From contig NW_024883481.1 of NCBI RefSeq assembly GCF_019059575.1, positions 23,881-87,880 of the forward strand: DNA of 64,000 nt. Reading direction: 5' to 3'. Of this stretch, positions 1 to 21,420 are shown piece by piece. The notes beneath the pieces are model-generated. The model did not search any database, was not told the origin of the DNA, and worked only from the letters and a program-made list of their open reading frames with translations. The stretch comes from Amphibalanus amphitrite. Lineage: Eukaryota > Arthropoda > Thecostraca > Balanomorpha > Balanidae. A program made the translations under genes and the position numbers. The number at the start of each line of letters is the position of its first letter. Positions within the stretch are counted from its first letter, which is position 1.

Positions 1-1050
1 TGACCCCGGCCGGTGTCACCGTCCTCTGAACAGTGGACGGCTAAACTCGAAAAACGGGAAAATTTAGGGAAATTTCACCTTTCGAATATATAATTTCCCC
101 AGAATTTTGAATTTTTCATTTTACAAAAAATCCGAGATAGCAGTTTTTTAGCCCCCTTCATTCTGTGCCTATACCCGTTTTCAGATCGACCCTATCATAA
201 AACCTGACGGCCTGACGGCTATTTCCCCCATTCCTTGCATTTCACAATGCTAGTATATTTAAGCACCAAAATTGACCCCGTGCCACGGCACGTGCAATAG
301 CACGTGGCCACGTGACCACTAGTGCGACAAGCTGGACTCATCTGCTCACCGGCTGCACTGATTTGGTGTCGCTAGGTGGAGTGGTTTCCACGCCATAGGA
401 CCCCCAGTTGGCCAATGTCGCATTTACCACGAGGTTACCCCATCAAACACGTTTGCACGTGGCACGTGCTTTTCAATCGCCCCATATCTGACCCATACCA
501 CGTGGTAGCCGACACCCCGGGACACAACATATTCGAACATTTTCAAAATCTAACGTGGAAATTTTTGGCAAAATCGATTTGAAAATAATTTTTCGAAAAT
601 GCCATAGGCTCAACATGGGGTAACTGTCGGCGTCGATTACCCGAAATTTTGTCATTTATATTTTAAATAATTACCCCCAGAAGGTGAGGTGCCAGCCAAA
701 GAACTGACCCTAAAAATGTGGACAAATATTACTGAACAGATTTTGCGCAAATCGCATTTTCAATTTTTCCCCATGTTAACCCTATGGGAAAATGCACGTG
801 CCGATTACCCCAAAACGGGTTAATTATATTTCAAGCAACCGGTACCAGCCGGTAGCTCCCCCATAGGGGACCAAACGCTGAAAATGGCAAGAAAATCTAA
901 CGAGCCGTTTTCGAGGGTATCAAGATGTCCTAAATCGCGGCAGAAACGCTAAACACCCCCCTAGAGAGGTAGCTCAGGTTGGGATTTTCAATAGAAAATC
1001 ACAATTCTAAAGAATAGTGATTGTCTAATTGAAAAGTCCCAACCTTCGGA
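1..1050. repeat. Dispersed repeat A, copy 1 (left end cut by window)
   Basis: About 1 kb of AT-rich DNA that matches 22203-23255 in the same orientation with roughly 85-90% identity by eye. It contains clustered CACGTG palindromes near 285-320 and 450-500. It ends in a long imperfect hairpin at 977-1044, whose arms read GGTTGGGATTTTCAAT and ATTGAAAAGTCCCAACC. Both copies stop matching a few bases after this hairpin, so the hairpin marks the right element end. No coding potential was recognised; the short ORFs here are not supported. Confidence 0.8.
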
Positions 1051-1470
1051 TACAGCAGAAAAGCAGCCACCAGGTGTCGCCACAGTCGCCACTTGGTCGC
1101 CACACAGATGTCGCGCGCGTCGCCAATCGCCACACTACCGATTTCCATAAGGACGCATATGTACGGATATGTATAGGAAAGTCGCCCTTAAGGATTACGC
1201 TTACATCCTTTGCTTATGAGGTCGGTGGTTGGAAATTGGGAGGGGCTCAGCTATTTTCGACCACGGATATGCCTTTATCACATGATGAGGAACATGCTGA
1301 TAAGCGTTTTATGCGTCATAACAGCACAAAAGTATTTTTAATCATTTTTCAAAAATAGCCGTTCTGCCGTATCTTTCAGTGCAAGGTGCCGTCGGTCATC
1401 CCCGACGTGACGTCACGCAGGGAATTTGCCAGATTTTCCTACTAGACTTCGACACCCCCTGGTTTCACGG
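1051..1470. repeat. Direct repeat B, copy 1
   Basis: A ~420-bp segment nearly identical to 1655-2079 in the same orientation; the offset is 604 bp at the left end. It begins TACAGCAGAAAAGC and ends near GACACCCCCTG followed by GTTTCACGG. It abuts the hairpin end of repeat A. The open frame shared by both copies contains no recognised domain and is treated as chance. Confidence 0.85.
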
Positions 1471-2079: not shown

Positions 2080-3718
2080 GGCTCTGGAGCACCTAAGCTT
2101 ATGTGATGTGATGGCTGCAGATGTGATGCGTCGGATGGCCGCAGGCCGGAGTCCGGCACCGGCGGCGGGCACAGCCAGTTGGGTGCAGGCGAGGCCGCCG
2201 TGTCCAAACATGTGCATCAGAGCTTATTGCAGATAGACGGATACCTATCGCGTGCAATCGATCTACCGCACAGGATAAATTCCACGGACAAGGATTCGTA
2301 GATCTGCGCAAAAAAGAAAATGCCAGACGAAAATCTGTCCAGATACCCACTTGTTCTAAGAAACTCTGATTTTTCTGGTCGTATCTTCATTTCATTTATT
2401 TCATTTATTCAGCAAAATCATCTACGGGGAGTCCCCCAATTAGCGACGAAGTCAAAGATTAAAAACACAGATATGGCATATAAATGAACACTAACAGCAT
2501 ACAGTTTAAAATACATACAGATAAGATAGCAAAACAGCTCATGCCTACAGCCACGCGAAGAAACTTCTCATCACGCAGCACACACATATGCGATAGCACT
2601 GGAACGGAACGTGACATGATATGAGTCGTGAAAGATGTCAGCTTGCAATCGCTGTCTCAGAAAGTTTGTTCACGACCTTCGGCAAACGCACAAATAATCC
2701 ACCCTTCACAGTGCTGACTCTAACTAGCATAGGGCACATTCGCCTGAGTATGCCCCTTGGGCCGCAAATGTTGTTTTCCATTGTGAAAAGCGTGCCATGA
2801 ATGTAAAGTTTCTGTCTGATATGGTTAAACGAATCCGATCGAAACGACTACTTTTTGGTATCATCTGTAACATGCAGTTCGCGGTGCCTGAAAACCCATG
2901 GACTTGGCATAACTTTGGAGACAGGTATATCCTGTATGCTATTTTCGTGTAGTAATAAATACAACAAATACTAAGAATAGCTTGAGATAGCGGGATACGT
3001 TTAGTGAGATGGTTGCGTGCGAAAGTTATCTTTAACAAAAGCTGCTAGAAACGTGCTGGGTATCAACAATTATCAAGTATCAAAAGTCTCATTATAAAGC
3101 GCAATACAAGTCGTACATTTATGATCGTATGAGACGTTCTGCATTGTTCTTATAACCACTTTCAAACAGACAAAATAGAAACGAAAAAAGTAATTATGCA
3201 GCGAACTCTGTGAAGTTCATTCGACGTCAGGCAACCATCTCTCCGGGGGCGCCACGAGGAGGCATCCCACAGTGTGGCATATCGGCAAACACAGATCTGC
3301 TGTAGCAGGTGAATATTATTTACCCTGCCGATGGCATTGGCAGCAATAGCCGATATTCCCACTGTCCGCCCCCATAAATTTTGCCTGTGGCAATGCAAGC
3401 CACTCCATTCATTATGAATGGTTTACCTTATTGTTCAACATCAAAACTAATAATGGGTCAGCTACTCAGGACGAGTCAGCATCACCTAGCCTTACGTAAC
3501 ATACATTGCTTTTTTGCGAATAGTTGATGAATGCGTCTACAGCTTCAATTTAAAATTGGACGTCATTTACCCCAAGAAAAGCTTTTAAAAGAATATTACT
3601 CAATTAGATAGTGACTACTTCACATTTGGCGAATAGTTTGCTGAATGGATGCCAATGAGATAGGTCATTAGAACGCTTCTTTGAAGTTCATATTTAGACA
3701 TTGCAGCCACTACAAAAC
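2080..3718. other. Non-coding stretch, nothing recognised
   Basis: AT-rich DNA with only short chance ORFs. No RNA gene, repeat pair or domain could be recognised by reading. Confidence 0.5.
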
Positions 3719-4000
3719 GGTTATATCGGGGATCAAAACCCAAACGGAGCTAGGAATCTGATGCAACTCGCTTTTGTACCTTTCTTGACGCAACTACACT
3801 TAGTTTGCATAATACGTTCGTGGAACTGGGATAAACCTATTATATTACTGACACGTTTATATTGGGGGATCAAAAGCCGAACGGAGATAACAGCCTGATG
3901 CAGCTGATGCATTGTACGTGTCTTGACGTAATTAGGATTAGCTTTCAAAAGAAATGGAACTGGTTTAACTATACATTTTTGCCCAAAGTACAAGATAGTT
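3719..4000. repeat. Imperfect tandem duplication of ~137 bp
   Basis: Two diverged units share the order GGGGATCAAAACCCAAACGG / GGGGGATCAAAAGCCGAACGG, then GATGCAACT / GATGCAGCT, then CTTGACGCAA / CTTGACGTAA, then GGAACTGG. The unit boundaries are approximate. Confidence 0.55.
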
Positions 4001-4958
4001 ATTGACGTCCCAAAACCTGCCATAACCAACAAATTTAACTAAAGAAGAAATGAGGTACATGCATTCCCAAATAGACCATGCGAGCACACATGCAAGTCAA
4101 GCAAGCACGTAAGTTTTTTTTTTTTTGAGGGTGGCATGCAAGCAAGGAAGTTTTTTTTTGTTTTTGTTTTGTGGAAGATGGCACGCAAGCACACATGCAA
4201 TCTCTTAGTGTTGGAATTGAATAGATTGCGTAATGTCGTTTCGTTTTTGGCCTACCTAAGGTTCAGTAAACCCCTCATTGGTTAATTAAGGCTACAGGGT
4301 GGGGAATAGCAGTCTCCCGGCAGAGTTTAGTCACCTGCCCACTAACCGCCTACCTATTTAACGTTGACATCAGCAGGCTTCCCCCTTGGCCAAGGCCTCG
4401 GCGTGGCCCGCTTCAGCCACGATCTAACGCACGCAGCGCAATCTAACGCACCTCCCACGCCTGGGCAAGGTTCCGTAAGCTCACGCCTTGGAGACTGCTA
4501 TGGGAGAAGAACAATGAGCGGGGACAGTGCAGCCTCGAGATTTTTCACCTATGTACTTGTTTTCAGGCTCTTTACATCCTCCTACCTAGGTATAATAGAA
4601 TGAACGCCTAGCGACCTAGTACCACTTTTTTGACAGCTTCCTACCAGCGACGCGTATTGACCAGCTGGTGCATACACCATGAGCGTTATTAATGGCACCG
4701 GACCAGCGTAAAAATGTGCAGTTGTGCACTGCTGATGGGTGTGTTAAGGAAAGAAACTCCGGAAGCTCCTACGGTAGAAAGGGCTAAGGGCAGAAAGAAA
4801 GAAATACCGGTTGGCCTAGGCCTCCCAGACCCCGAATTCAACACCGACCTAACTGTGTGATATTCTGCTTCCAAACATGTAACGTAACCAGCTTGTGGAG
4901 CCCATTGACACGCGCGTGACCAAGTGTCGGTCATCTTCTATCCGATGAATAGATAGCA
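4001..4958. other. Non-coding flank downstream of the giant Helitron-like ORF
   Basis: Contains T-tracts near 4109-4125 and 4151-4175 beside repeated ATGCAAGCA/CACGCAAGCA motifs. Because the ORF is on the minus strand, the 3' end of the mobile element should lie here. No convincing terminal hairpin or CTRR-type end was identified. Confidence 0.4.
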
Positions 4959-7900
4959 TTACTGTGCAGGCTTACCAGTTTTGCGACCCCTCTTGGCGGG
5001 TCGTCCGCGATTAACTGAAGTGGACGCTGGCCTTTTAGCCCCGGTTGAAGACCGCTTACGCTTGGGAACACTCATCTCTAGCTGTCTGTGTTTGGACTGA
5101 GTCAAATAGATGGGCCTGGCGAGTATCAGGCTTTCTTCTGTAGCTAACATTTTGTTTATAACCGCTACGACTTCCACCATTTCTACATGTCTGCCGGAAG
5201 CAGCGAGACATTGCAAAACAATTTCACCTACGTCCTGAACATGATGCTGTCTCCACGCCCTGTGTACGTAATCTGCAATCAAATTTTGCTCCCGTGACCA
5301 TTCAGCTCCGCCCTCTATCTCTACGTAAAGACGCCACGTTTTGGCGGCATTAATGCGCATTTGGCGCTCAAAAATTTCTGCTTCAATGACGTCATCATTA
5401 AGGCGCTGAACATTTATTTCCTGCGCGGTAGGCCATTCTGTCTCAGGAATGTACATGTGCTTTGGATGTTTAACGCGCGAAACTACGACAGTCCAAAAGC
5501 CCGGATTGCCCACCCATTCCTTTACTTTAACTTCTACCCGAGACAAAGTGGCACCCTGGCCTTTAAAGCCGGTAAACGCGCTGCCCCCCTCGAGCGGAAA
5601 ACCTACGCGAAATTCAGAACAGTTATCTTCAGAAACAGCGCTGCCCTTTTTGCGAGATGCACGGCCGCGTTTCACTGCACGGATGGGAACAAGATCATCT
5701 GCGTCTTCTATGCCTAGAACGTTTTGACCACCGTTGGCGGTATAGCCAGGAACACGAACGACAATAAACTCGGGCAAATGAGGCGCACACTTTGGTGTGC
5801 GCAAAACTAGCTTAACAGGGTCCGCGGTGGCCACTAGTTCATCCAGACAGTTGCCCTCTAAATCATTGCCATTTACTTTAACGATGACGCTTCCCACCGG
5901 CACCTGATAGACGTTTTCCCTATCTGAATGGGGCGTGTCGATAGGCTCCACAAGTGTCACACCTTCAACACGTACTTTTTCCGCAAAGTCGCGACGGCTA
6001 ATAGTCACGAGCAAATCATCTTCTAGATATAGGGGACCCACAAACTCTACCTGAGACCCGTTAAATAGACCAAAGCTGGGTGCTACATTTTCTAGCAGCA
6101 TCAGCGGCAGACCCCTACACGCAAAGAGAACCGAAGGCACCGCGCGAAACTCTTTTGCCGATAATTTTTGTAATTTCTGAGCCTTCCTGGCTGGCATGTG
6201 CTGTGAATTTACGGCCATGACGTGAGCGCTCCTATCTGCAGCAAAATTAACCAGAGCACGAGCATTATCAGATTCTACTGTTGAACGGTTTGCAGCCCAC
6301 TCACTAAACCAGTGATACCCATGTAACGTTATAGCACATTTCCACGCAGGATCGGCAGACAAGTCCTCAGTTGTGGCACAGTTTTCCTTGAGCCACTGAA
6401 TTTTCTCCGGGGTGGCCTTACCGTATCTCATAGACGGAAGAATCTCCTTAGTAAATTTTGCGGCTACCTCGTCATTTTCAACAGTACGACGCACCTCATT
6501 TAAATAAACAGTTTCATAGTCGCCGTCGTACGCGGCGGCGCGAAAACGAGCTACTTCCGCACGTACGCGGTCACTAAGATCAGCGCGGTTTACACCTAGC
6601 GTTTTTCTCCACGTTTCATACCCTGGCAAAGTGTCAAGCGCCGGCATTCTGAAAAGTTCACGGAAAGATGCCATACCCAAAATAGAGGCCTCACAGCATG
6701 CATTACCGTCGTCCGAGCGCTGACGCAAGCTCCAAATAGGAACATCCCCGATTGGAAAAATTTGCGCTGGATCACCGACAAACAGGACACCTATGTGATC
6801 CATGTTAACACCTGCCTGACCGAGACGCTGCATTACCCAACGTATCATGCGACGCTGAATCATTGAAAATTCGTCAAAAATTATCAAACCTAGCTCAGTA
6901 CTAAGGCTATCACAAAGCTGCAAAAAGCGACGGCTATCCTCGGCCAGTGGCTCGTCCCCTGTTTGGCCCACGCTGATGGCGTATAAGCGGTGAATGGTAG
7001 TGGCGCCATGCGCCATGTGAAAAGACGCACATCCTGTGGGCGCCGACAATTTAACTACATCCGTCCACTTGGCAAAATCATCACCTAACATTTCACTGAG
7101 CTGATGCACGGCCGAACGCAAAGTAAAAGATTTGCCGGCACCGGGATCTCCTAGCAAGAACGCGCGCAGTGCCTTCGGCGGCGTTTGCCGCAAGTCTACA
7201 ATATCCGGTCTGACGGGTGGGACCTGACGCGATGAGCCCGCCAGCCGCCACTGCTTCACCTGCCTATCGTATGAATCCCACTGGCGACGCGAGCAAGCAA
7301 ATTCCCTCTGTTGCGTTAAATAGCGCTTTAAAACCGCCGACAGCACGCGCTGACGCCCTGAGAGGGCAGCCAGCGGTGCGTGTGCGACGTCTCCTGTACC
7401 GCTAGCGACTAGCCTACGATAATTGCGACGCACTAGGTCGGGATTAACTGGCCTGTCTCCTAGCCAGTCTGCCTGAAAATCAAAGCCAGCCGGATTGGCA
7501 ATGCCGGCCGCGGCCACCCCTGGTACGCAATTTGCTTCCCCATCATCCGCCGACCTATCATCCCCCCGATTACCTAGCATTGCGTCTAGAGCCGTCTGAT
7601 AAAAACGATCGGGCAAACGCGTCGCATTCGCCTCCGGCTCCACTGGTTCATTTTGTTCTAAAACAACTTGATCTTCGGGATCGGGGTCGTCGCTATCCGA
7701 CGACTCGGACGCACTCGAATCGTCGTTGGCGTCAGACGGGTGAAAATGATTATAATACCGCCGCACAAAAGCCGGAACGTCTAAGCCTGTTGACAGCAGA
7801 CGGTGGTACCTACAGATCCAATGGATGCACACCTCAGCCGGTGAAGCCTGCTGAGACGGCATCAGGTCCTCTGCAAGCAAGCAGGGTTCACACCAAAGAA

Positions 7901-10900
7901 CAATATCGCGGGCGTATTTCCAGAAGCCCTGCCTGGACGGATTGGCGCTACTTTTACCGTAGTGTGGAGTCAGACGGACGCACACACGTGACCCGCAAAC
8001 CTGGTGACGCCGACGCCCAATTGTCATTACCTTTTGATCACCTATCTTTTTCTCAGAGACTACAAAAGTATCAAAAAATTGACGAACCGACATGACACGC
8101 TGAAACTCGTCGGCAGCTATGCCGCCATGATGCACATTATCATTTAGACGCGCGTTGAAATGCTCCAGACGGCTAGCAAACACATACTCTCCGGCATCTT
8201 CCGCAGAAATTGGCCGCAGAAGGCGAGTACCACTAAAGCCGAAACCGCGCGCGCGAATATTCCTATACAGCAGAGGCAGCTGCCAATTTTTGTGCATTGC
8301 CTGAAAGATTGATTGACACCTAGCCGACGAAACTGCATTATACATTCTCATAACTACGCCAGCGTCTATATTTGCGGTGGCGCCGCGCGTCTCCAGAGCC
8401 GTAAGAAGAACATCGGCCGGAGTTCGCACGGGAGCAACTGGCTTAAAGCCGTACTTTAGCGCGTATTCTACGTTAGCATCACCTGACCCAATTGCCAACT
8501 GCATTGTGAAAGAAAAGGCTACACCATCGTCTGTAGTTACGCTTTCCCAAACGACAGACGGCGGCCGCGCCAGCCACGCCGGCACGACCGCTTTATCGTC
8601 TACGTTATTCAAAATGTGCAAGACGGCGAATGGATCATGCCCTCCCATCCACACGTCATTGCACGCCGTTTCACACTGTTTTATACGCCTATCGTGAGAG
8701 TCTGACGCAACGACCGATTCAGTCCGAAGACGACGAGGCATCCGCCTTTTGCACCGAACAACCTCTTTCTTCACTGGTGCCGCGTTAGGATTTACTCTAC
8801 GTGCTTCCGCGGTGGCTGCCTTGTCGACTTTCAGACGTTTAACTGCACATCCGTCTTTCAGCGACGGTGCTGTACCCCTACCGCTGTGACCCGTGTGGCG
8901 AAGTGTGCCGTTAATTACGCTCACATACAGCTGGTCAATATAAGCAAAGTCACCGGAGGACATGGCCCTATCGAGCTCGGCGGCCATTCGCGCGCGACAA
9001 ACGGTTGTTTTCCTATCGTAGGCAAATTCAAATGTGCGCCGACCACCCTTAGTAAAGCCCGCGTTCCAATTTGTGTACATGTTCTCAATGCGCCTAATGT
9101 AGGACTGCTGACAAGACTGCCACGCCGCGCGCACCTGTGTCTCGACCGCGCTGCGGGACGTGTCCCGTGCCAGCGTTGGGTCCTCGTTGCGCGCCGCGCG
9201 GTCAATCCTTTCAGCCTCAATGCGAAGCTGAACCTGAAGACGATGCAAGAAAGTAGAAAACGATTCACTAATTATATTACGGTGAATGTGAGGATTGGCG
9301 TTCGCGCCCCACTCCGCACGCACAATATGGTACGTGGCGGAGTAACGCACGCGCGCCAACGCAAGGGTGTCCATTTCCCCAATGAACGCTGTGACCCACG
9401 AAACGATGCCCGGATGCTTAAGGGTGTTGGCAAATCGAGCGTGTAAATACTGCTCGTCACTAAGTGTTTCGCTGGCGGCTGCGCCGTCAGACAGACGATG
9501 AATAGCGGGATGGTGGTTATACGGGACGGCCCTAGTTTGCCAAAGATGAACTACGAGCGGAATGTCACCAACCCGCCATGACGGCGGGTCTTCTAGATCA
9601 CGAATAGCGCCTATCATTTCGTGCTTGTGTGCACGCCAAAATGCATCCGAATCATCCAATTTTGTTTGAAAACAGAGCAGAGAGCGAGCCAGCGTGCGGC
9701 ACAATTGGGGATCGTCTACTAGCTGCTGTTTTGTGGGGAGACCATCTGGAAAATCGGTCAGATTTAGAGCGACGGTGGCATCGCGATTTGAAGAGTCCCT
9801 ACTCTTTTGGTTGCTTATTACAAATTGTAGCTCAATGTTACCCTCGGATTCTGGCTGCTGGGCTAGCCAGTGCAAATACGTCTGACGCCAAGTCGTTATC
9901 GGTTGGCGAATAAGAACAGGCCGCTCCTGAAACGGGTCGGCATCACCAGTTAAAAAGACGTCTGGAAAACAGAGCTGAAAATAGCCGGGCGTCCACTCCG
10001 GCAATGGATGCTCGCGGTCGGCCGGAGGCATGCTAATACGGTGCAAGGCTGTCTGTGCCAGTCCTCGCTGACGAATGTCCTCCGGCCGTTCACTTTCGGG
10101 TGCGGCAACGCCGCCTACCGCCACGCCGCTGGCTCCGCCCTCGTCATTACCAAATTCACGGCTTAGAATTTCGAGTTCCTCGCAGCACATCAGCAGAAGC
10201 GTAGAACCGCGAGGAACAGTGCCTGCCGCCTCGTCTTCGACGGACGGCGCTAACAACCAGTGACGCTCCACCGCGCACTGAACTACGTGTCGTATCGTTA
10301 CGTTAACATCGTCATCGTCGCCCGACCCGTCGTCCCGTGAGTCCCTGACAGCATTGCGAATTTCATCCCAAAGATTTTTCAAGCAAGTCTCGCTCGTGTC
10401 CGCGCCCTCACCCCCGTGCTCCAGTGAGTAGCTGGTGCGGAGTATGTCCGCCATCGGAAAGCCCGACTCTAGCCAGTTAACAAATTGATTAAAATGTAAA
10501 ACTTTATTTACGCGCGCGTGAACCTCATCTACGTTAAGTACGCGCAGACCGTGTGGCTGGCAGGGACGGTTGCGTTCGGGAAGGCGACTCTGAAGCTCCC
10601 GCAAATTTTCATTGGAAAATGGCACCCACTGCTCGGCCACGAAGCGATAGAACGGCCGCGTGTTTCGCGGATTGTACTTGCACGGCATTAGCCTTTCCAT
10701 GAGGTGCCTAGCTTTTAGAATTGTCTCCATATTAACCATAGCCTCGCAATGGGTGCCGTCACGCCTGTTTTGCTGGACGACAATGAACGGCAGCTGGGCA
10801 AAATCGTACCAGGGCAGACGCGCGGCTTGGACGGGACGCTTCATGGGATAGCAAATTGATCCGTGCTTTGTGAAAGGTACGTTATTGGCCCTGGATCTTA

Positions 10901-13900
10901 GCACGGCAACAGTAAGATGAACGGGGCGCAGAATCATGGTTTCCGCACGGGTCCACGAATTAACAAAGAGACGGTACTCATCATCACCATAAACGTCAGT
11001 AGACATTAAATTTCGTGCAGAATAGGGGCAAATGTGAGTACGGGGACCATTTAGCTCCTCAGAATCCTGACTATCGCCGGCAACGTCTGCCATATCGGCA
11101 GACGCACCGGCCTGTGAAGACGGCAGCGACTGGTCCGTGTCGGACACAAGTGGTCGCGGCACGATGTTATTTAAAGGGTCAATTTGGAATGAGGGGGAAC
11201 ACGTTACGCAGACGCCTAAGGCCTCGCGGTCGGTTAAAACGGTGCCGTTGGCACCGAAGAATTCCGGATCTAACCTAATCGTACACTTGTTATCTCTACG
11301 CAAAATTTCTGAATTTGACAGCGCGTCGTCTACGATACCTCCCGGCACGAGCTGGACCATGTTGCCGCGTTCCGGGACACGAACTACCCAGCCCGGATGC
11401 GGCAGCCCTGGCGTTTGTTTTTTACAAATGATACAACGAACTTGACGAAGCGAATCATATACGGCATGCAAGTCTCTGAGCACCTGCAAAGAGCCTACGG
11501 TTAACTCTACCGACGGATCCTCGTGGTCAATGCCGTCCCCAATAGGATCGTGCCAAGCTTGACAACACTTGGCCTCGCGCGGAGTGGCCACCGTGAAGCG
11601 AGCGGCCGTGAAAGGTAAGTTCCGCATTGCCTGAAAACGTTTACGGCGCGACATTAAACCTACAGTTACTTTACCTACCGGTGAGGTCCGCGTCACGAGC
11701 GAGCCACGGTCACGCCACACGACGGATCCCGAATCCCCGCGATGGCAGTAGGAGCCCATAATTTGATTTTCCTCCTTACAATCCCCAGAGTCCAGAACCC
11801 GCAATGTCTGCAGCCGGATGGCGGCCGGCGGCAAATGGTCACCGAGCTCGCTGACAGCTAACGCTACCCATGTTGAGGGTTTCTCTTGGCGACTGCACTG
11901 CGCAATGTCTATGGCTGTGCCACAGGTAGTACCTACCAGACGGTCACAAGTGAACTTTATGGTTTGTTTCCCACCGGCGTAGGTGTAAGAGCCTAACGGA
12001 TATTTGGCAGCCGCTCTGCCGTCTATCACGCGAAGTTTATCACATTCACAGCAGCGACGAATGAAAAAGGTTGGGAATTCACGGCCTACATCGTCGCTGC
12101 TGACGTCTGCGGTCTGCTGAGAACCGGCGAGCGGCGGACGGTTGCGACCGCCGCCCGGCGCACTAGCCTGATGTGATGTGAATTTAACGTCATAAGCTAC
12201 GCGAGCACTGTAAGCCCTATCCTCATGGCATTGGGGACCCGCAAAAGTTTCAAAGAGGTGAGTGTGCCGGGCATGATTTTTCCTAATTTTTTCATGAACC
12301 TGCCTAAGAAGCTGCTCAAAGTGCTGCTCGGACACTGTGTCCGTCTGCGGATTGGCCTGAAATTGCTCCCACCCGTCCCGGCCGTACATATGAGAAAATT
12401 CTTCCTGGAATGTAGTCTTTCTATAGTACACATACCACCCCCTACCGTAATAATGAAGTTTCAGCAAATTGTAAGCGTCCTCCCAGCGTTGTGGCCCTCT
12501 GTGCGGTTCTAGACCCTCCTCCTCTACACAGCGGGCGTGTACTGAATAGTAACGGTTAACTTCACCGAGAATTTTCATGAAAAGATACTCGCTGTCGAGG
12601 ACGTCTGCCACTGAGTGACCAGACTTCTTCACGAAATCTTTAAACCTCAACCATGAATAAAACCTGAAGTTAACAAAACTACCACGAGAGGGGTCGCAGA
12701 AGCCCCGCCTACAAAGATTGCTCCACAAGGTCCGGCGCCTCTCCCCTATCTCACCGGTTAGATAAGTGATAACCACCTTCGTACTATCCCTGTACGCCCA
12801 TGGACCGGTAAGGTCGGATGTTGCGCCTAAAAGATCTGTCTGAACGGATTCTATAACTATATCACTATTGCTGCGCTCTTCAAGCTCTTCGAGCATGGCG
12901 CGCGTCAAGAATGAAACTCTGTTTAAGTCTAAGGGGTTGATTTGCCTAGATGAGAAGAGACGGTCTACATCCGGTTCACTGTGCACTGATGGTGCCCTTT
13001 CCCTATCGGACCCTTCCTCGGGGGGTGCCTGACACGTACCCTCCACGATTTTGTCTGCGGGTGTCTCCCTGGCAGCGGCCACCTCCTCATTTGGAGGAGC
13101 GCTGCCAGTCGAGGGGCGCCTAGCAAACCGCCCACGTTTCCCTCCCCCTCCCCTACCTCTAGCACGTGGGACGGTATCATGTGAGGCCGATTGTTTATCA
13201 GCCGGGGAAATAGTTAGAACGCTACCGTCGAAAATATCTGGACTTACACTACGCGACGGCGCCCGCTTTGCTGTTTTCCTACCTCTGTTTCCCCTACCGC
13301 GACCCCCGAAGACTCCACGGGCCCTTCCCCTACACGGGGGCTTGGCTACACCACTCGATTCCGGCTGAATCACTACTAACCGCGGGGGGAACTGGATCTG
13401 CGGGGCGCCGTCTTCAAGAATATCTACAGTTACAGCACGATTGGGAGAAAACCCGTTTTCAACCATCCCACCCCTGCCACGACCGCGCTTAGCCCTAACA
13501 ACCTCTACCCATGGCTCATCAGCCGGCTTCTGAGCCTCGGAGCCGACTACGGTACTACCTACTGGTTCGTCTACTGTTAGCAGAGGTGACTGTACACTTT
13601 GTGCACAGTCACCGGCACTGAGCATCGGCACTGAGCTCGACACTTCGGTGACAATGTTCTTTGGGACCTCTACAGCTGTGGTGACCTCTACAGGGGAAGA
13701 TACGACAGGCTCAGATGGAGCCGGGACCGCCTGACTAATACCTACACTACCTAGCACGAGATCGAACGCCTCCTTATGGGAAGCGAACGTTCTCTTGCCC
13801 CTACCACGCATCGTCTTACCCGTCTTTGAGCGTTTGGGACGGCGCGAGGCGGACACTGCGGGGGTCTGGGCGCTATCGGAGGGGGGCTTCTTGACCTGCG

Positions 13901-14369
13901 TTTCGCGGGTCACCTGGGACGGCTGGGGGGATGATGACCTAGGCGGCACAGCATACAGGTCATAATGACCACCGTCGATTACCCCAGTGTACCGCACATG
14001 AATTTCGGGGTGATCCGGGTTCCCATGGCGCTGCATAACTTGCCCATTGCGCCAGACGACGATGCGGCGCCTCACGACGGCAGCCGCCGCGGTCAGCTCC
14101 GGCTCGGCGCCCCACTCTGCCCTAGGCACCACCCTCCTATTTAGGTAATCCTCAAAGTCTCCCACGATGAAACCCTCAAAGTCTGCGCGGTTAGCCCACA
14201 TGTACGTCACTACCATGAAACGCAACATTTCCGCGTCGATGACCCCACCTCCGACGCCGCGCGAGATAGCATGGAACATACAATCCCCATCCATGGGCAT
14301 GTTGATGATGTTTAGGTTCTGGGGGCCACTTCCCGTTTTGACTACCTCCGCATAGGTGTTGAGCGCCAT
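4959..14369 (-). CDS. Giant OTU-Rep-Pif1 polyprotein of a Helitron-like rolling-circle transposon (3,136 aa)
   Basis: Single uninterrupted minus-strand ORF. The start at 14369 is chosen because CAAAATGGCG is a good Kozak context and the next residues lead straight into the OTU domain; the frame stays open upstream to 14801 without homology. Seen in order: an OTU-type cysteine protease (~20-143) with DGDC (D27, C30) and GGHYDLY (H135); RGG/RGRG and basic linkers (~170-480); a ~600-aa region of unknown origin with Cys pairs; the Cys-rich segment that precedes Helitron Rep (~1000-1260); a Helitron Rep with PHIH (HUH, H1694/H1696) and YALKY (Y1969, Y1973); an acidic linker; and a Pif1-like helicase with GDPGAGKS (2407-2414), DEFSM (D2499) and KGQGATL near the C-terminus. 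The tail is Arg/Lys-rich. Known family role: Rep nicks and joins single strands while the helicase unwinds. The intact frame suggests recent activity (inference). OTU-bearing Helitron relatives (Helentron/Helitron2 group) are known; the length and linkers here are unusual. Confidence 0.9.
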   Translation of the reverse strand: MALNTYAEVVKTGSGPQNLNIINMPMDGDCMFHAISRGVGGGVIDAEMLRFMVVTYMWANRADFEGFIVGDFEDYLNRRVVPRAEWGAEPELTAAAAVVRRRIVVWRNGQVMQRHGNPDHPEIHVRYTGVIDGGHYDLYAVPPRSSSPQPSQVTRETQVKKPPSDSAQTPAVSASRRPKRSKTGKTMRGRGKRTFASHKEAFDLVLGSVGISQAVPAPSEPVVSSPVEVTTAVEVPKNIVTEVSSSVPMLSAGDCAQSVQSPLLTVDEPVGSTVVGSEAQKPADEPWVEVVRAKRGRGRGGMVENGFSPNRAVTVDILEDGAPQIQFPPRLVVIQPESSGVAKPPCRGRARGVFGGRGRGNRGRKTAKRAPSRSVSPDIFDGSVLTISPADKQSASHDTVPRARGRGGGGKRGRFARRPSTGSAPPNEEVAAARETPADKIVEGTCQAPPEEGSDRERAPSVHSEPDVDRLFSSRQINPLDLNRVSFLTRAMLEELEERSNSDIVIESVQTDLLGATSDLTGPWAYRDSTKVVITYLTGEIGERRRTLWSNLCRRGFCDPSRGSFVNFRFYSWLRFKDFVKKSGHSVADVLDSEYLFMKILGEVNRYYSVHARCVEEEGLEPHRGPQRWEDAYNLLKLHYYGRGWYVYYRKTTFQEEFSHMYGRDGWEQFQANPQTDTVSEQHFEQLLRQVHEKIRKNHARHTHLFETFAGPQCHEDRAYSARVAYDVKFTSHQASAPGGGRNRPPLAGSQQTADVSSDDVGREFPTFFIRRCCECDKLRVIDGRAAAKYPLGSYTYAGGKQTIKFTCDRLVGTTCGTAIDIAQCSRQEKPSTWVALAVSELGDHLPPAAIRLQTLRVLDSGDCKEENQIMGSYCHRGDSGSVVWRDRGSLVTRTSPVGKVTVGLMSRRKRFQAMRNLPFTAARFTVATPREAKCCQAWHDPIGDGIDHEDPSVELTVGSLQVLRDLHAVYDSLRQVRCIICKKQTPGLPHPGWVVRVPERGNMVQLVPGGIVDDALSNSEILRRDNKCTIRLDPEFFGANGTVLTDREALGVCVTCSPSFQIDPLNNIVPRPLVSDTDQSLPSSQAGASADMADVAGDSQDSEELNGPRTHICPYSARNLMSTDVYGDDEYRLFVNSWTRAETMILRPVHLTVAVLRSRANNVPFTKHGSICYPMKRPVQAARLPWYDFAQLPFIVVQQNRRDGTHCEAMVNMETILKARHLMERLMPCKYNPRNTRPFYRFVAEQWVPFSNENLRELQSRLPERNRPCQPHGLRVLNVDEVHARVNKVLHFNQFVNWLESGFPMADILRTSYSLEHGGEGADTSETCLKNLWDEIRNAVRDSRDDGSGDDDDVNVTIRHVVQCAVERHWLLAPSVEDEAAGTVPRGSTLLLMCCEELEILSREFGNDEGGASGVAVGGVAAPESERPEDIRQRGLAQTALHRISMPPADREHPLPEWTPGYFQLCFPDVFLTGDADPFQERPVLIRQPITTWRQTYLHWLAQQPESEGNIELQFVISNQKSRDSSNRDATVALNLTDFPDGLPTKQQLVDDPQLCRTLARSLLCFQTKLDDSDAFWRAHKHEMIGAIRDLEDPPSWRVGDIPLVVHLWQTRAVPYNHHPAIHRLSDGAAASETLSDEQYLHARFANTLKHPGIVSWVTAFIGEMDTLALARVRYSATYHIVRAEWGANANPHIHRNIISESFSTFLHRLQVQLRIEAERIDRAARNEDPTLARDTSRSAVETQVRAAWQSCQQSYIRRIENMYTNWNAGFTKGGRRTFEFAYDRKTTVCRARMAAELDRAMSSGDFAYIDQLYVSVINGTLRHTGHSGRGTAPSLKDGCAVKRLKVDKAATAEARRVNPNAAPVKKEVVRCKRRMPRRLRTESVVASDSHDRRIKQCETACNDVWMGGHDPFAVLHILNNVDDKAVVPAWLARPPSVVWESVTTDDGVAFSFTMQLAIGSGDANVEYALKYGFKPVAPVRTPADVLLTALETRGATANIDAGVVMRMYNAVSSARCQSIFQAMHKNWQLPLLYRNIRARGFGFSGTRLLRPISAEDAGEYVFASRLEHFNARLNDNVHHGGIAADEFQRVMSVRQFFDTFVVSEKKIGDQKVMTIGRRRHQVCGSRVCVRLTPHYGKSSANPSRQGFWKYARDIVLWCEPCLLAEDLMPSQQASPAEVCIHWICRYHRLLSTGLDVPAFVRRYYNHFHPSDANDDSSASESSDSDDPDPEDQVVLEQNEPVEPEANATRLPDRFYQTALDAMLGNRGDDRSADDGEANCVPGVAAAGIANPAGFDFQADWLGDRPVNPDLVRRNYRRLVASGTGDVAHAPLAALSGRQRVLSAVLKRYLTQQREFACSRRQWDSYDRQVKQWRLAGSSRQVPPVRPDIVDLRQTPPKALRAFLLGDPGAGKSFTLRSAVHQLSEMLGDDFAKWTDVVKLSAPTGCASFHMAHGATTIHRLYAISVGQTGDEPLAEDSRRFLQLCDSLSTELGLIIFDEFSMIQRRMIRWVMQRLGQAGVNMDHIGVLFVGDPAQIFPIGDVPIWSLRQRSDDGNACCEASILGMASFRELFRMPALDTLPGYETWRKTLGVNRADLSDRVRAEVARFRAAAYDGDYETVYLNEVRRTVENDEVAAKFTKEILPSMRYGKATPEKIQWLKENCATTEDLSADPAWKCAITLHGYHWFSEWAANRSTVESDNARALVNFAADRSAHVMAVNSQHMPARKAQKLQKLSAKEFRAVPSVLFACRGLPLMLLENVAPSFGLFNGSQVEFVGPLYLEDDLLVTISRRDFAEKVRVEGVTLVEPIDTPHSDRENVYQVPVGSVIVKVNGNDLEGNCLDELVATADPVKLVLRTPKCAPHLPEFIVVRVPGYTANGGQNVLGIEDADDLVPIRAVKRGRASRKKGSAVSEDNCSEFRVGFPLEGGSAFTGFKGQGATLSRVEVKVKEWVGNPGFWTVVVSRVKHPKHMYIPETEWPTAQEINVQRLNDDVIEAEIFERQMRINAAKTWRLYVEIEGGAEWSREQNLIADYVHRAWRQHHVQDVGEIVLQCLAASGRHVEMVEVVAVINKMLATEESLILARPIYLTQSKHRQLEMSVPKRKRSSTGAKRPASTSVNRGRPAKRGRKTGKPAQ

Positions 14370-15110
14370 TTTGCTTTGTTTTTTTAAAGAAAATATAACT
14401 AGAACAAAAAGCCAACGGGCTAACTGATCTGCGAACAAATGCAAATCCAAGCAAGAAAACGTTCGAAAAATATAGATACGTGCAAGAAAGGAACTACAAA
14501 CTGGCGCAACAGGCGCAAACAACAAGAGGAAGTTGGCAGTTGTGTCTGGCTGTGGGCCTCTCAGAACTGCTCGGCAGACAGGACAGGACAGGCCTGGAAA
14601 AGGAAACATCCAATCAGATGTTAGACCGCTGATAGATGCATTCTTGTGGGGCGACATCCGAGAAGGGACACGGGTGGGGACACTTATGAGTTGTAGCCAC
14701 AACTGCAAGGTAGGAGGGGGGAGGAGCAGTGGAGGCGGAACACCTTCAATTAAGGGGGGCACTGCCGACCTTTGGTCCCATTCTTTCCATGCAACGCCCA
14801 TAGGGCTAACGCCCCTAGAATAACAAGCAAAAACAGGTTTTGACGCAGCAGTCGTCTTCAGTTTCTATTTCAATGAAAACGGTCGTCCAAAACAGGGTAT
14901 GTATGGCCTTAGCTTCAACAAAATTTGATTCTGAGAGGTCAACGAGCCAAATATCGTCAAGCAACCAGATGAAGGACATGACTTTGAGCCATGCAGTATG
15001 AACCAGGGTATATTGATTTAGGTGTGAACTCCGACACCGGAGTCGGAGTTGGTAAGATTTTAGTGATTCCAACTTCGACTCCTGGCAAAACTGCCGACTC
15101 CGAATAAAAT
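14370..15110. other. Leader and 5' flank of the Helitron-like element
   Basis: Upstream of the start codon (reading minus) is an A-rich leader, then ~430 bp with an open but unrecognisable frame. A small hairpin GCCCATAGGGC lies at ~14797-14807. A TCCGACTC/GGAGTCGGA-rich patch occupies 15030-15105. The element's 5' terminus should lie hereabouts but could not be fixed. Confidence 0.35.
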
Positions 15111-15114
15111 ACAA

Positions 15115-15306
15115 CGCAAAACCAACATGAAATCAATGCTGGATCGATGTCAAAAGTCGGCTGATCCTCAATGTTGACAATCAACCTGGATTGAAGCAAT
15201 TAGTTATAACGCAAAATTAAACGTGAAATCAATGCTGGATCGATAACAAGTCTGTTAATCCTCAATGTTGACAATCAACTTAGATTCAACCAATTCTAAT
15301 GTTGAA
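15115..15306. repeat. Two-copy tandem repeat, period 96 bp
   Basis: Units begin GCAAAACCAACATGAAATCA at 15115 and GCAAAATTAAACGTGAAATC at 15211. Both contain AATGCTGGATCGAT and CTCAATGTTGACAATCAAC. Confidence 0.75.
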
Positions 15307-15587
15307 TCAATGTTGTGTGCTACTATGGAGCCAGCCATTCCAAATAGGGTCCACCTAGGCTAAAAGAAGGAATCCGGGCGAAGGTTGGCATGGGCAACAT
15401 CTGCGCTTTTATTTGGGCTCAATTGGGTTGACCACAAGCTGAAGCTTTTCTAGGGTTCCAACATGAATTTAAAACTCAATCATTTCAGTTTTTACATATC
15501 ATATAGATAACCCATGAATAAATCTTAATAAAATCAAATTGATGAAATGCTGGTACAGTTTTTCCCTTTACCGGTATCACAGAGCAT

Positions 15588-15842
15588 GGGCGTAGGAACC
15601 TCACAAAAAGTGGGGAAGGGGAGGAGGCAGAGAAACTTCAATGTCACGTTATGGGAGCTCCAATACCCCTATGAAGAAGTTCTTTTTAGTTTTGTGCTCA
15701 TCTCACCTTGCTAAACGATTTTCTGCTCTTAGTATTGTATTTAAATCAAAAATAAAGGTCGTACTTAAAAATGGTTGAAAAGAGGGGGCTATAACCCCCC
15801 CCCCCTGTTCCTACGCCTAGGAACAGGGGTTTCCTACGCCTA
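15588..15842. mobile_element. Putative small inverted-repeat element (MITE)
   Basis: Left end reads GGGCGTAGGAACC and right end GGTTTCCTACGCC, forming terminal inverted repeats about 250 bp apart. Next to the right end is a palindrome at 15802-15829, CCCCTGTTCCTA-CGCC-TAGGAACAGGGG, that reuses the end sequence. No clear target duplication was found, so the class is undetermined. Confidence 0.5.
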
Positions 15843-16300
15843 GAGGGTTTCTGGGATTGCATGCCACCTGGGCCCCAAACGAGTCCCACCTGGGTCCCAG
15901 TTGATATTTATGTTGGCCCCAAGTGGGCTTTTTAGCGAATACCCATGTAAGCCTGAGCTGGAAAAGCCCATTAGGCTAAATACAGGCCCATCTGGACCAA
16001 ATATGCCTAAATGGACCCCTCTGGGATGCCCAGATGGGACCCAGATGGTTAAAAGTGTAGAAGTCTGAATGAAGACAAAAAACATAATCTGATCTGATTT
16101 AACCTTACCTACTCACCTACCAACCTAAAACCTATCAACCTACAACCTGACAATCCATAAAATGCCAACCTACAATATATTCAGACTTTTTAAAAAGGTA
16201 CCAATAACCCCAGCTGGATACCCATGACATATCCATCTGAGTCTGTAGTGGGCAGCCCGGATGGACCCCACTTTGGTGCACACTTGGGGCCTCAAACAAA
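15843..16300. repeat. Degenerate CCCA(N)nTGGG-rich repetitive segment
   Basis: Many variants of CCCACCTGGG, CCCATCTGG, CCCAGATGGG and GGCCCCAAG recur in 15870-16060 and again in 16200-16290. No coding frame. Origin unknown. Confidence 0.4.
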
Positions 16301-19090
16301 TCACATTTTTAAGAGCAGATACAAGGCAAATTTAATAAGTGTTATTTTCCATAATTCATTATGGAAAAAAACTTTTGAATAATAGCAAAGATTTCAAATA
16401 CTGCTTCACCGACAACAGAGCTAATGCAAAACAGAAGTTGGGAGGCATTGCATCTGATGTTGGGAGGCATTGCATCATCTGATATTGCATATAGGCAGAG
16501 GGGCCACATATGGCACAAGGTGTACACAAGTTTGAAAACGTGTAAAAAAGGTCAACAAAATTGTGCCAATCCATAGTCTCTCTTGTATCAAGAACAACAC
16601 AAAACTGAGCCTATTGAGCCCAAATAATCGATTACAATGACAAGATCTGATTGAGGTGTACAATATTATGACTGGCAATGTGAACATTGACAAGACAAAC
16701 GTCAATTCTTTGAATAGGTAATGAATTACAAGTAGATCCCAGAACAATAGGTCAGCTGTTGAAACTTAGGAAAAGGAGAACTTTGCAACATTTCAGAATA
16801 TATATTACTGAACAGCTCTGGGAAATAAAAAATGGAAACCGAGGTCCATAAAATTTGTTGGCATGAGGCGTAGCTGAGTGGTTACCAGATACTTTTTGAA
16901 GGCCAAGGTTTCCATTTTTCTCCCAGAGCAAGTTCAGTAAGTTATTTCCAAGACGTCATTTGGCTATCCATTCACAAACTCACAAGTGTATTGTTTCCAT
17001 CACCTTTAAAGGTATTTTATTATGAAATCACTAGTACTGTAGGTCATCAACCCTTGCCGGAAAACAGTGCGGGAAAGATCATTTGCAATGTTTCCTGCAT
17101 GGCTAGGATAATGCTTCTACCTTCACTACATTTGATAACAATTCACAATTTTTAAAAGTGAAGAATACAAAAACTGAAGCAACAGGTAAAAACCATATAA
17201 CAAATATAAAAGCACTACAACAATGATAATCAGGGGTTTGAAAATTTCATTTTGCCATTTTACACAAATACTGATTGTTTAGTATGCGATTCATGATGCA
17301 AAAATAACATACAGTGTGATTTCCTCAAAACAGCTTTAACATGATGGACAGTGGCTCTGTCTTTTTCCCACTCACAAGGCCAAAGGGACAATTCTTAGTT
17401 TTAAGGTAACACTTTTTGCAAACCTACCACATTTTTCTACCTTTTTCAAGAAAAATCTCACCGTCATGGGCCTTTTTTCAACCGTAACGATACATTTGAA
17501 GTCAAAAGTGTACCCAAATGAATCAAAAAATTGATTCCATGCCCATATTTGGTCATGGCTCCTCCCACCAGAATCAAACTATTGATGCCTCCATATTTTT
17601 ATTCCAAAAGTCTAGTTTGCCCAACTGATGTTTATTTGGTATAAATTGCTACTCATCAACTCTTGAGATATTTACACAAAAGTCCACTGCGTGCTGGTAA
17701 CACAGACCTGGCACAAGCTACCTACCATAAGCACGGAATTGCATCTTTCTCACCAAACCAAAAGGGTGGTGTTTCACCATTGATAGCAACACGCTGCTAT
17801 TACACATGTCAAATTGGTTTTCTATGGAGACGTCAACAAGCCCATTGCTCCAACCGGTAAAACACTGACAAAACAAATCAAATCAAACCTTAGCTGCTAC
17901 CTACAGCCTACTTTTTAAAACCTACAACCAACATATCACAAATGGCAGCTCGTGCCGTCTGCTCTGATACCAAATGCCTTACAAAAAGTTATGAGCTTAA
18001 AGCCCTTTCCAAAATATATAACAGAACAGGTGGACATGCCATGAGTACCTTAAATGTTTTATCTCAGCATTTTACGTCAGCATCCAGCATGTAGGGAGGA
18101 AAATCAAAATGATTGTTTTCAAATTTCAGCTTCAAGCGCGTTATATATGCGTCGGAATTGCCGCATCATAAACTTCTAGCCATAAATAGCTTCAGCATGG
18201 GAGAAAAGCAAAAAACAACACTATCCATATTTTCCACAACCAATAACATTAATTTTGGCATCATACATACACTTCACAATGTCAAATTTCCACTTAATAT
18301 CTATCCGAATAAAATGTCAACCACCCACCTTCTAGCTCATGCCCAAGCAGGCCGTTAGAAGTGGCGGGAACGCCGGTAACGATTACTTTACTGCGGGAAC
18401 AAGTGTACTTTTTAATTATTCAAATTTTGGCCTGCAAACTGGAGCGACAGACCCTTATTTGTTTGTATAACTTCTTTCATTTGATCATATTATTAATAAC
18501 ATGGCAGCAAATAAAAAATACTTGAAATATTTTCAATGAAAGCTGTGGTTGCAAATAATTATGTTATTACTTAAGTCATTGATATAAATATGAGCTACAA
18601 CTTGGCGCATATGTGGCACTTATGATTCATTTGAAGCTTTTTGTAAACACTTTTGAAGTGTGCATATTTTTATCCCCAACAGAAATCACAAACAAGGTCT
18701 GCAATACCGGGCGAGTATTCAACAAGCAGATGAGAAGAGCAGACGTGCCAATGCTGCTCTTGAAAATGAAAAGTTTGATCGATTTTAATAATTTCTGCAC
18801 AATTCGATAGCGGAGACCGAGGATCGTTGCCGTTTTTCGGTGATAGATTACTCTGGGCGGACCAACAGGCAACAAGAGTGAGGACCAAATCGGTCCAGAT
18901 TCCAGAACCCCCCCCCCCCCGCTAAAAGCAGACGAGCCCATATGGCTGTTCGGGTCCCTGCAGCATAGATCTGTGTACTGTGTGCGTCATACTTGGGTGA
19001 CGTCAGCCGCCCGGCTCCACCCACCCTCCACCGGCACGCCGGGGCCGAGCGCCGCTGCAGCCTGCAGCCTATTCCAACCGTGGCGCTGAG
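16301..19090. other. AT-rich intergenic DNA, no gene recognised
   Basis: Apart from the hairpin at 16805-16940, nothing supportable is seen. A run of C lies at ~18907-18920 and a GC-rich patch follows at 19000-19090. Confidence 0.45.
16805..16940. repeat. ~135-bp hairpin element with a tRNA A-box-like loop
   Basis: The arms are long inverted repeats: the left arm carries TTACTGAAC, CTCTGGGA and AAAAATGGAAACC, and the right arm carries GGTTTCCATTTTT, TCCCAGAG and GTTCAGTAA. The loop contains TAGCTGAGTGGTTA at ~16871-16884, which fits a Pol III A box, but no good B box follows. It is called a small foldback element, possibly with a tRNA-derived core. Confidence 0.6.
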
Positions 19091-19339
19091 GAACTAGTGA
19101 TTGTCGTTCAAATAACGGTTAAAATGCGTTCAAATGTGGTCAATAACCCATGTAAATACTTACTCAGCTCAATCAGTTCACTCTATATTGACTCAAGTCA
19201 TATCAAGCGAGCGCAATTACAAACTATGTAGAGCACCAGACAGCGCAGAGGTCCCCAACTCACTGCTCGCCCAGTCCATCGGGGCCGGCGCCACGACGGC
19301 CCCCCGCAAGTAGGCAGCCCGCACTCTACCGGCAGCCGC

Positions 19340-19465
19340 GGGCAGCACGCTCGTCTTTTCCGCGAAGCTCTAGCTAGATCAGGGGCCAAACGCGAGGGGG
19401 TCGTACCTACCCCCTTAACCCCCTTGTGCCGTCGAAGGACGCAAAATGGCCTGTGCCGGCGAGGG
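19340..19465. mobile_element. End fragment of a TTAA-type MITE
   Basis: Contains TTCCGCGAAGCTCTAGCTAGA and TCAGGGGCCAAACG, which also occur near 45850-45890 and (inverted) at 57930-57960. It then ends GGCGAGGG followed by TTAA at 19466-19469. The remainder of the element in the expected order is missing here. Confidence 0.6.
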
Positions 19466-19530
19466 TTAAGTTTGTCGAGAGATGCGTAGGGATGACAGAC
19501 CCGAGTCTAATTTTTGCTTGAGATCCAGTG

Positions 19531-19859
19531 AGATCATAGATCCTCATTTACTTTTGTCAACTCAGAAATCCCAGCAAATCACTCGTTGCAACTTGCAAGT
19601 CACAAACGTTCAGTTTTAGAGCTTCTATGTGATTGCACGTCATATCCACAATTTTGTGGCACTTGACATAGAAACACTTCGAAACCCTGGTTTCAAATGC
19701 TGTGCATGGAAGGATCCACTCAGATCATAGATCAAAGTTCTTGGTTTATCGTCAGATCCTATGAGATCATAGATTAAGATTAAATTTTTCACGCTGAATC
19801 CCGTGGGACCATAGATCCTAGCCTGCAGTTTCCTTCGAGGTCCACAAAGATCATAGATC
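19531..19859. repeat. Five dispersed copies of AGATCATAGATC
   Basis: The 12-mer or a close variant occurs at 19531, 19722, 19764, ~19807 (variant) and 19848, each preceded by a GATCC/GGTCC-like half about 9 bases upstream. Spacing is irregular, so this is not a simple tandem array. Confidence 0.65.
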
Positions 19860-19879
19860 CATCACTCGGACCCATGCAC

Positions 19880-20448
19880 GTGTCTGGTAGGAGGGTCCCT
19901 TAAAAAAAGCGAAACGGGCACGTCAGTTCCCTTTTTAGTTCCGTTGTTTACTCCCATGTGTACCGACGGATCGGCCAAATCTGGCACCAAGAACAGATGA
20001 GGCGAAGCTCTACTCCAGCTGAACTGAGATGGCCGCGACCTGGAGACGATGTTGCCGGATGGCGTGGTCTGCTGCAGTAGAGCTGAACTGGCGGCGATGC
20101 TGGCCTCCCCCACCTGCCTGCGGAGAGCCGATCCGCATTGGTCGTACTCCCGCTCAGGAGTCCAGCTCCTGCAGCGCAGCCCGGATGCTCAGCAGCTCAT
20201 CAGGGTCGCATCTTTGCAGTGATGATGATCGCGATGGAAAGTGTTTGTGAGTGTTCAGGCATTTGCATTCAAATATACATGTTTTAATCATAAAGCGTTT
20301 ATTCACAGAAAGGATTTCGTAGACTGATCACAGTAGGTAATATTTGGACATTACTTTCCGAAATCGAACCGAGACAGGGCATTATCCCCCCCGCGCCTCA
20401 GACACGTATGGCCAATGACCATGCATCCGCGCAGCTCTGCGCCGGCCG
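19880..20448. other. Unresolved stretch with possible minus-strand coding remnants
   Basis: On the minus strand, 20225-20165 reads CDPDELLSIRAALQELDS then a stop, and the adjacent frame continues REYDQCGSALRRQV, suggesting a frameshifted helical protein remnant. No family is recognised and the evidence is weak. Confidence 0.25.
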
Positions 20449-21050: not shown

Positions 21051-21420
21051 TTGGAGCTGATTTCGAATTTAACAACCATTTGAACATTTACAAAATAGTG
21101 CTGGTGCCTTCGTAACATGTTACGAAGCTGCAGTGACAGGTGACACCTTCTATGGATGGCCGGCAGGACGCCTACTGGTTGACCTGACCTGACCTGACCC
21201 GACATGTCGTAAATGCATGAAGACATTGTCTGTGATCAAAACTAACATGAAATTCGGCTAAACCCCGAAATACCTCGCAATACCCTCACTTTACGAAGTT
21301 CCAAAAGGTCCCGATTTTAGGTGATTACCTAAACTGACTTAAGAAAGTCAGCTAATGACCTTGGACTTCCAAATTGGATATGTTCTGTCTTCTCTCGCCA
21401 TGGGTAGCACGCTCGACGGC
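21042..21420. mobile_element. Internal fragment of a TTAA-type MITE
   Basis: Shares GTAGGTTTTGGxGCTGATTTCGAATTT, CTTCGTAACATGTTACGAAG, ATGGATGGCCGGCAGGACGC, tandem TGACC and GATCAAAACTAACATGAAAT with 45480-45840 in the same orientation and with 57990-58340 inverted. It stops at GCACGCTCG, the word at which the separate 19340 fragment begins. Confidence 0.7.

Follow-up and report, generated by a model that had tools for sequence, protein, structure and literature searches.

What kind of gene joins an OTU cysteine protease, a Rep-like region and a Pif1-type helicase in one frame of 3,136 codons, and what might the protease do there? The frame lies in a 64,000-nucleotide stretch of Amphibalanus amphitrite DNA (hereafter the window), which we compared with the 807.5-Mb genome of 2,644 contigs from which it comes. 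We conclude with good confidence that it encodes the transposase of a Helitron-superfamily rolling-circle transposon, autonomous and active in recent times, that is about 22–24 kb long and bounded by ends of the Helitron2/Helentron kind. The frame, its OTU and helicase domains, its genomic copies, the ends, precise insertion, arrays and selection on the OTU are all observed.

The ORF runs on the minus strand, from position 14369 to 4959 of the window, and translation of the plus strand across the same interval meets many stops; the original prediction had the coordinates right and left the strand unstated. The frame is open already from an ATG at 14801 (to 4959), and the ATG at 14369, in the context AGCAAAATGG, gives the protein of 3,136 residues. 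At a G+C content of 53% a chance frame of this length is very unlikely, and both the translation and the genomic copies bear out the intact frame that had been predicted. The residues predicted with it (D27, C30, H135, H1694, H1696, Y1969 and Y1973) all occupy the positions given for them, and the predicted Pif1-type helicase is present, with Pfam matches to AAA_19 (6.3e-10), AAA_30 (3.1e-8) and PIF1 (9.1e-6). PIF1 scores 25.8 bits in the whole protein, just missing the cut-off of 25.9, and 28.5 bits with the segment alone. Along this part lie, in order, GDPGAGKS, IIFDEFSM, VGDPAQ, TGFKGQGATL and VVVSRV, which we take to be the helicase motifs by role. Pfam matched neither a Rep family nor an endonuclease in the 3,136-residue ORF, gave no above-cut-off match to a tegument-type (VTD) deubiquitinase in residues 480–1440, and returned nothing to back the zinc-finger name for the Cys-pair stretch at residues 769–830. 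The layout is given in Table 1.

Table 1. Coordinates, in the window, of the transposon, the parts of its protein and the neighbouring copy.
Feature	Position	Strand	Evidence or remark
5′ end, starting at base 23257 with TATCCGAAGGTTGGGACTTTTC...; arm of the inverted repeat 23238–23256	23228–23257	-	Comparison of copies
Non-coding 5′ part of the element, 8.4 kb	14802–23257	-	None of the ORFs scanned reaches the Pfam cut-off
Single ORF of the element: OTU, linker, Cys-pair unknown region, Rep-like part, Pif1-type helicase, basic tail	4959–14369	-	3,136 codons; translation, Pfam, copies
OTU domain, residues 1–143 (Pfam match 26–129); D27, C30, H135, D137	13941–14369	-	Pfam, family-2 comparison, pN/pS
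Arg/Gly-rich, fast-evolving linker, residues 144–470	12960–13940	-	Pooled pN/pS 0.59, 11 copies
Cys-pair stretch, residues 769–830, possible zinc finger	11880–12065	-	Sequence; C773, C776, C808 and C816 common to family 2
Rep-like region, residues 1640–1980 (HPGIVSWV...EWGANANPHIH with H1694/H1696; YALKYGFK with Y1969/Y1973)	8430–9452	-	Motifs; family-2 alignment
Pif1-type helicase, residues 2341–3040	5250–7349	-	Pfam, motifs
3′ non-coding part common to other copies	2899–4958	-	Comparison of copies
Start of a copy of about 2.4 kb without the ORF, inserted between CTGCTG and TAT in a 604-bp tandem repeat	1–1052	-	Continues past the window to C1984:22,518

The gene is far from unique in this genome. 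A central 1,001-bp piece of the ORF recurs at 92–100% identity in at least 40 places (39 whole and one split in two, with 40 of 106 candidates scored), and the top score is tied by at least eight places, the window copy among them. A protein search with the Rep part found at least 58 places (58 of 185 candidates scored), which fall into 36 at 94–100% identity (family 1, including the window copy) and 22 at 62% (family 2). Among the matches listed, no stop codon interrupts the matched Rep stretch in any of the 58, and 21 of the 36 family-1 and 19 of the 22 family-2 matches sit in open frames 3,100 or more codons long. The helicase part as query returned the same two classes in at least 57 places, family 2 at 64–65%, and across 491 columns the Rep-like regions of the two families are 66% identical. 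In family 1 the frame is open and the OTU motif DGDC stands 26 residues past the same ATG in all ten other copies examined (C1538, whose 5′ flank has no match to the window there, was kept out of this comparison), and the one family-2 copy read (C814) encodes 3,167 residues with its OTU at 63–168 (4.4e-10) and the same order of parts. Since further copies of both families show the same arrangement, the OTU, the Rep-like part and the helicase belong to one uninterrupted frame; separate OTU and Rep genes, named in the original prediction as the finding that would undo it, were looked for in these copies and not seen. The further copies that it had called for also served to define the termini of family 1. 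Scans of a viral collection with the protein and with the two-family alignment (26 pattern matches in the latter, none confirmed) identified no relative; both work through short exact peptides and are weak for distant kin.

The assignment of residues 1640–1980 as Rep-like draws on the motifs PHxH and YxxKYxxK and is accordingly worded as a likeness. H1694/H1696 and Y1969/Y1973 by themselves prove little, because H.H followed 80–400 residues on by Y...Y arises in 1,290 of 5,000 shuffled versions of the 3,136-residue protein. The more specific PHxH...YxxKYxxK occurs in 0 of 5,000 shuffles. So does the fuller pattern HP.[IV]V[SA].V...EW.....PHxH...YxxKYxxK, which is found in both families and in five of six canonical Helitron frames of the genome (the exception, L003, is a shorter frame), and which, because it was composed after the sequences were seen, is support and not proof. 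These canonical Helitrons (L001–L003 and L005–L007) thus resemble the giant families in the order HP.[IV]V..V, EW.....PHxH, YxxKYxxK in five of six cases, and their Rep shows no statistical similarity to that of the giant families: profile–profile comparison with six of eight canonical loci, using a shallow two-sequence profile, gave no match, and seven pairwise Smith–Waterman tests of 200 shuffles each gave z values of -0.1 to 2.3, none significant. Nor does the Rep part match Helitron_like_N in Pfam, even with the threshold relaxed to E<=10, and its profile has no match in the PDB at E<=10. A single-sequence AlphaFold model of residues 1540–2040 has a pLDDT of 37.5, too low to interpret.

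The boundaries of the element were read from the flanks of ten further copies (one of them, C475, on one side only). Of 16 matches to the 5′ end in the loci examined, two are cut by the locus edge and the remaining 14 reach the end and all start with TATCCGAAGG. Directly upstream of these 14 starts lies a 3′ end, ...GCCCGGGCC, in ten cases, a 3′ end plus nine bases in one, and other DNA in three (window 23257, window 1052 and one start in L021). The same loci hold 13 3′ ends, ...AATTAAAGTCCCAACCTTCGGATCCGCAGTGCTGTTCGACAAGCGCTGCCCGGGCC, followed by TATCCGAAG in 11 cases and by host TAT in two. A 19-nt inverted repeat occupies positions 2–20 of the 5′ end, which holds a CC-GAA-GG core, and recurs 33 nt before the 3′ end. 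The palindrome that follows the 3′ arm folds as DNA only slightly more stably than its shuffled versions (z about -1), with 27 of 200 and 30 of 200 shuffles folding equally well. The 5′ end shows no such advantage, being equalled by 155 of 200 shuffles. On contig C194, two successive exact junctions at 721,735 and 745,291 lie 23.6 kb apart with a copy of the ORF between them. In the window the element starts at 23257 and the next one at 1052, a span of about 22 kb; sequence shared with other copies reaches 2899, and a search for a family-type 3′ terminus of its own found none. A second gene was sought in 10 of the 13 small ORFs and one longer ORF of the element, none of which has a Pfam match at the cut-off; the best match, MTA_R1 (0.0045; 17.6 bits, with the cut-off at 25), is regarded as chance. 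Around one family-2 ORF (L060 and L061, about 10 kb on each side) family-1 ends are absent save for a single weak match to part of the inverted-repeat arm, and family 2 may have different termini. These two flanks also contain a 168-bp patch that is 85% like family 1.

Genome-wide, 961 5′ ends (at most two mismatches), 705 3′ ends (at most one) and 400 head-to-tail 3′-to-5′ junctions (at most two) were counted, against none for the reversed control of each, and the listed ends are often about 2.4 kb apart. Insertion was read from seven copies of about 2.4 kb (2,375–2,413 bp between ends), chosen among the first 100 places listed, and from six further 3′ ends. The host bases after these 13 ends are TAT in eight, CGC in three, and TAC and TTA in one each; with two more, TAT follows in 10 of 15 non-array flanks and another triplet in 5 of 15. 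The three CGC cases (contigs C1, C5 and C9; L053, L054 and L056) have one identical 3′ flank starting CGCCTTACAG, and these copies perhaps ride in a larger repeat. When the host flanks of the seven copies were joined and searched for in the genome, uninterrupted sites were recovered for two, at 98–100% identity, in five places for the copy on C8 and in 35 for that on C93; the other five joined flanks had no empty site among the 40 scored of 3,773 candidates, which is uninformative. The element is therefore inserted precisely before TAT without target duplication, with a 3-nt ambiguity over the TAT itself; we assign the 5′ TAT to the element because it is constant there and the host side is variable. 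The window holds a further case, in the 604-bp tandem repeat at 1050–2063, where one unit bears the insertion, CTGCTG followed by TATCCG, and the other is empty, CTGCTGTATG; this comparison is one-sided.

Copies also lie in arrays, with four ORF copies within about 74 kb on C194. We also considered that the transposase-like gene might simply be part of a satellite or an ordinary tandem gene family, spread by unequal exchange without transposition. The many arrayed copies agree with this, and unequal exchange may well enlarge arrays; single copies with the same two ends do not, and the precise empty sites refute it, so that we give it almost no credence. Two neighbouring C194 units share a 4,079-bp stretch at 99.98% identity beside adjoining stretches at 86–93%. 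To the left of the window, the element beyond C1984:22,518 has nine extra bases where it is joined and, at a greater distance, part of an ORF copy; the junction itself (C1984:22,508–22,518) contains an extra TATCCGAAG, as though the 5′ tip had been copied twice.

Rolling-circle transposition fits these data because there is no net duplication, the ends carry an inverted repeat and a 3′ palindrome and are directly joined to one another, and the protein combines two tyrosines with a Pif1-type helicase. To place the element among known rolling-circle transposons we drew on excerpts of published reports (PMC4067079, PMC5148889, PMC6431247 and PMC9741609). Great size alone is not new, since Rep-Hel proteins can surpass 2,000 residues with added domains (PMC6431247). 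Canonical Helitrons have 5′ TC, 3′ CTRR and a target between A and T (PMC4067079), whereas this element starts with TATCC and ends in GGGCC before TAT. The asymmetric inverted repeats without an endonuclease are those of Helitron2, and in the FoHeli elements of Fusarium oxysporum the 3′ arm similarly lies 20–40 bp inside the end; FoHeli1 and FoHeli2 share the CC-GAA-GG core at the 5′ tip, and head-to-tail neighbours occur occasionally (PMC5148889). The target that FoHeli1 and FoHeli2 prefer, unlike ours, is TNAT before A (T is also printed), and the excerpt ties OTUs to endonuclease-bearing Helentrons, not to FoHeli (PMC5148889). Helitron2 has hairpins at both ends; here folding lends weak backing to the one at the 3′ end and does not support a 5′ hairpin.

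We also entertained the possibility that the element is a Helentron proper, with an endonuclease that was missed or lies in another frame. Helentrons and their HINE partners have inverted repeats near both ends, 2–4 nt from the 5′ tip (here 1) and 38–60 bp before the 3′ end (here 33), together with a palindrome near the 3′ end, abundant ORF-less partners with the same ends, and the OTU as a recurrent extra domain, according to the excerpt (PMC4067079). In the traits that set Helentrons apart the resemblance breaks down: the ORF has no C-terminal AP endonuclease, neither it nor 11 further ORFs of the element (one longer one and 10 of the 13 small ones) match an endonuclease family, no RPA was found, insertion is before TAT and not within TT, and the giant Rep gives no Helitron_like_N match, whereas that of a mite Helentron matches pfam14214 at 1.62e-19 (PMC4067079). 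We regard this reading as quite improbable. Thus, of the original placement in the Helentron/Helitron2 group, the likeness to the Helitron superfamily with a fused OTU holds, and Helentron does not, given the missing endonuclease and a TAT rather than a TT target. The fusion of an OTU to a transposase is a known theme, here in an unusually divergent form; in the portion of the literature searched, we met no account of an element that lacks an endonuclease and combines an N-terminal OTU with insertion at TAT. Tentatively, and as a possibility we rate below an even chance, the two giant families could represent a separate deep rolling-circle lineage, neither canonical Helitron nor Helentron, with a Rep that has moved past the standard profile, a TAT that would serve both as its own first bases and as its target, so that each copy is the next landing site, and an OTU that would be obligatory. 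By eye, C2217, considered as a Helentron of the same genome, is a Helitron of the canonical type with an interrupted Rep frame; on C2217 and C173, split PF14214 matches are repeated every 11.5–13 kb or so.

The OTU itself matches PF02338 at 3.9e-11 over residues 26–129 in family 1 and at 4.4e-10 in family 2, and a two-family profile finds OTUD5 (2.1e-10) and OTUD3 (8.4e-10) in the PDB. The catalytic Asp, Cys and His of OTU cysteine proteases are present, in keeping with membership of PF02338, and D27, C30, H135 and D137 are invariant between families despite an OTU identity of only about 36%. In a comparison of 11 family-1 copies, three of which (C2082, C1095 and C412) are near-identical in the region, pN/pS is 0.124 for residues 1–143 and 0.59 for residues 144–470 (uncorrected Nei–Gojobori-style counts pooled over pairs). 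These two ratios show the OTU to be maintained under strong purifying selection and the linker to be under far weaker constraint. No between-family ratio is given, because synonymous sites between the families are saturated. In the linker, blocks within residues 201–500 retain 15 of 81, 19 of 73 and 27 of 96 aligned residues between families. At 12960–13940, copies with central parts that are 99–100% identical differ by indels and many replacements, a pattern that suggests mosaic exchange between copies.

What the OTU acts on can be approached from these constraints. One reading is that it processes its own 3,136-residue chain, for example by cutting in the Arg/Gly-rich linker and freeing the Rep-helicase as in viral polyproteins, an idea already published for Helentrons (PMC4067079). 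It would account for the OTU and Rep sharing one frame across a long linker, and a GRGG stretch occurs in the linkers of both families. Against this, one of 11 copies has GSGG in place of GRGG, and a linker rich in Arg and Gly would be expected to contain such runs. No other part of the protein is conserved so little as the linker (pN/pS 0.59), no fixed site was seen in it, and the tegument-type domains of zebrafish Helentrons cut ubiquitin chains in vitro (PMC9741609). We consider self-cleavage unlikely. We favour a deubiquitinase because conservation covers the catalytic domain and is lowest in the linker, the expected place of any cuts; we give roughly even chances to an OTU that would serve the element by keeping its transposase, or the replication machinery, un-ubiquitinated. 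Such a deubiquitinase appears more likely than a defence role, and self-cleavage less likely.

The zebrafish Helentrons DrT1 and DrT2 offer a parallel, in that a deubiquitinase-class domain is built into the Rep-Hel protein (a tegument-type domain at residues 300–520 of the zebrafish protein) and DrT2 also has an OTU; they differ in being endonuclease-bearing Helentrons with VTD domains, whereas here there is an OTU only (PMC9741609). The same excerpt counts 121 VTD-bearing Helitrons that also have OTUs and states that the activity of viral and transposon OTUs had not been assayed at its writing (PMC9741609), and roles in chromatin signalling or transposase cleavage have been suggested for transposon OTUs (PMC4067079). 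The literature thus already contains both the occurrence of OTUs in transposons of this sort and the suggestion that they act by cleavage (PMC9741609, PMC4067079). The retention of a fused OTU in two families that share only about 36% of its residues bears on why rolling-circle transposons and herpesviruses repeatedly recruit deubiquitinases. A young multicopy family with intact frames, known ends, short two-ended partners and a selected OTU makes the need for the OTU in transposition directly testable.

In the working that we propose, the two-tyrosine Rep would nick the 5′ end immediately before TATCCG, the helicase would unwind the strand, the palindrome-bearing 3′ end would terminate the process, and the freed strand would be joined to host DNA directly before TAT. 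Meanwhile the OTU may shield the transposase or the replication machinery from ubiquitination. The copies of about 2.4 kb, which have both ends, could be mobilised in trans. Because the element itself starts with TAT, any resident copy already presents a target at its 5′ end, and head-to-tail arrays could arise from insertion there and from rolling-circle read-through. Bypass of the terminator is the alternative published for Helitron arrays (PMC4067079), and evidence suggesting a circular intermediate is described for FoHeli1 (PMC5148889). The 400 head-to-tail junctions allow one to ask whether arrays grow beside a resident 5′ end or by read-through.

Elsewhere in the window, a Gypsy-type LTR element at 23505–29647, with LTRs that are 99.8% identical, lies about 250 bp from the 5′ end of the transposon; it contains a pol region at 25225–28593 (RT, RNase H and integrase) and a DUF7041 ORF at 24383–25303. 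A COX1 gene with 10 in-frame TGA codons on contig C2644 is indicative of an animal genome, as is an ORF at 62243–63391 of the window that matches the rhodopsin family of receptors (7tm_1, 1.4e-23).
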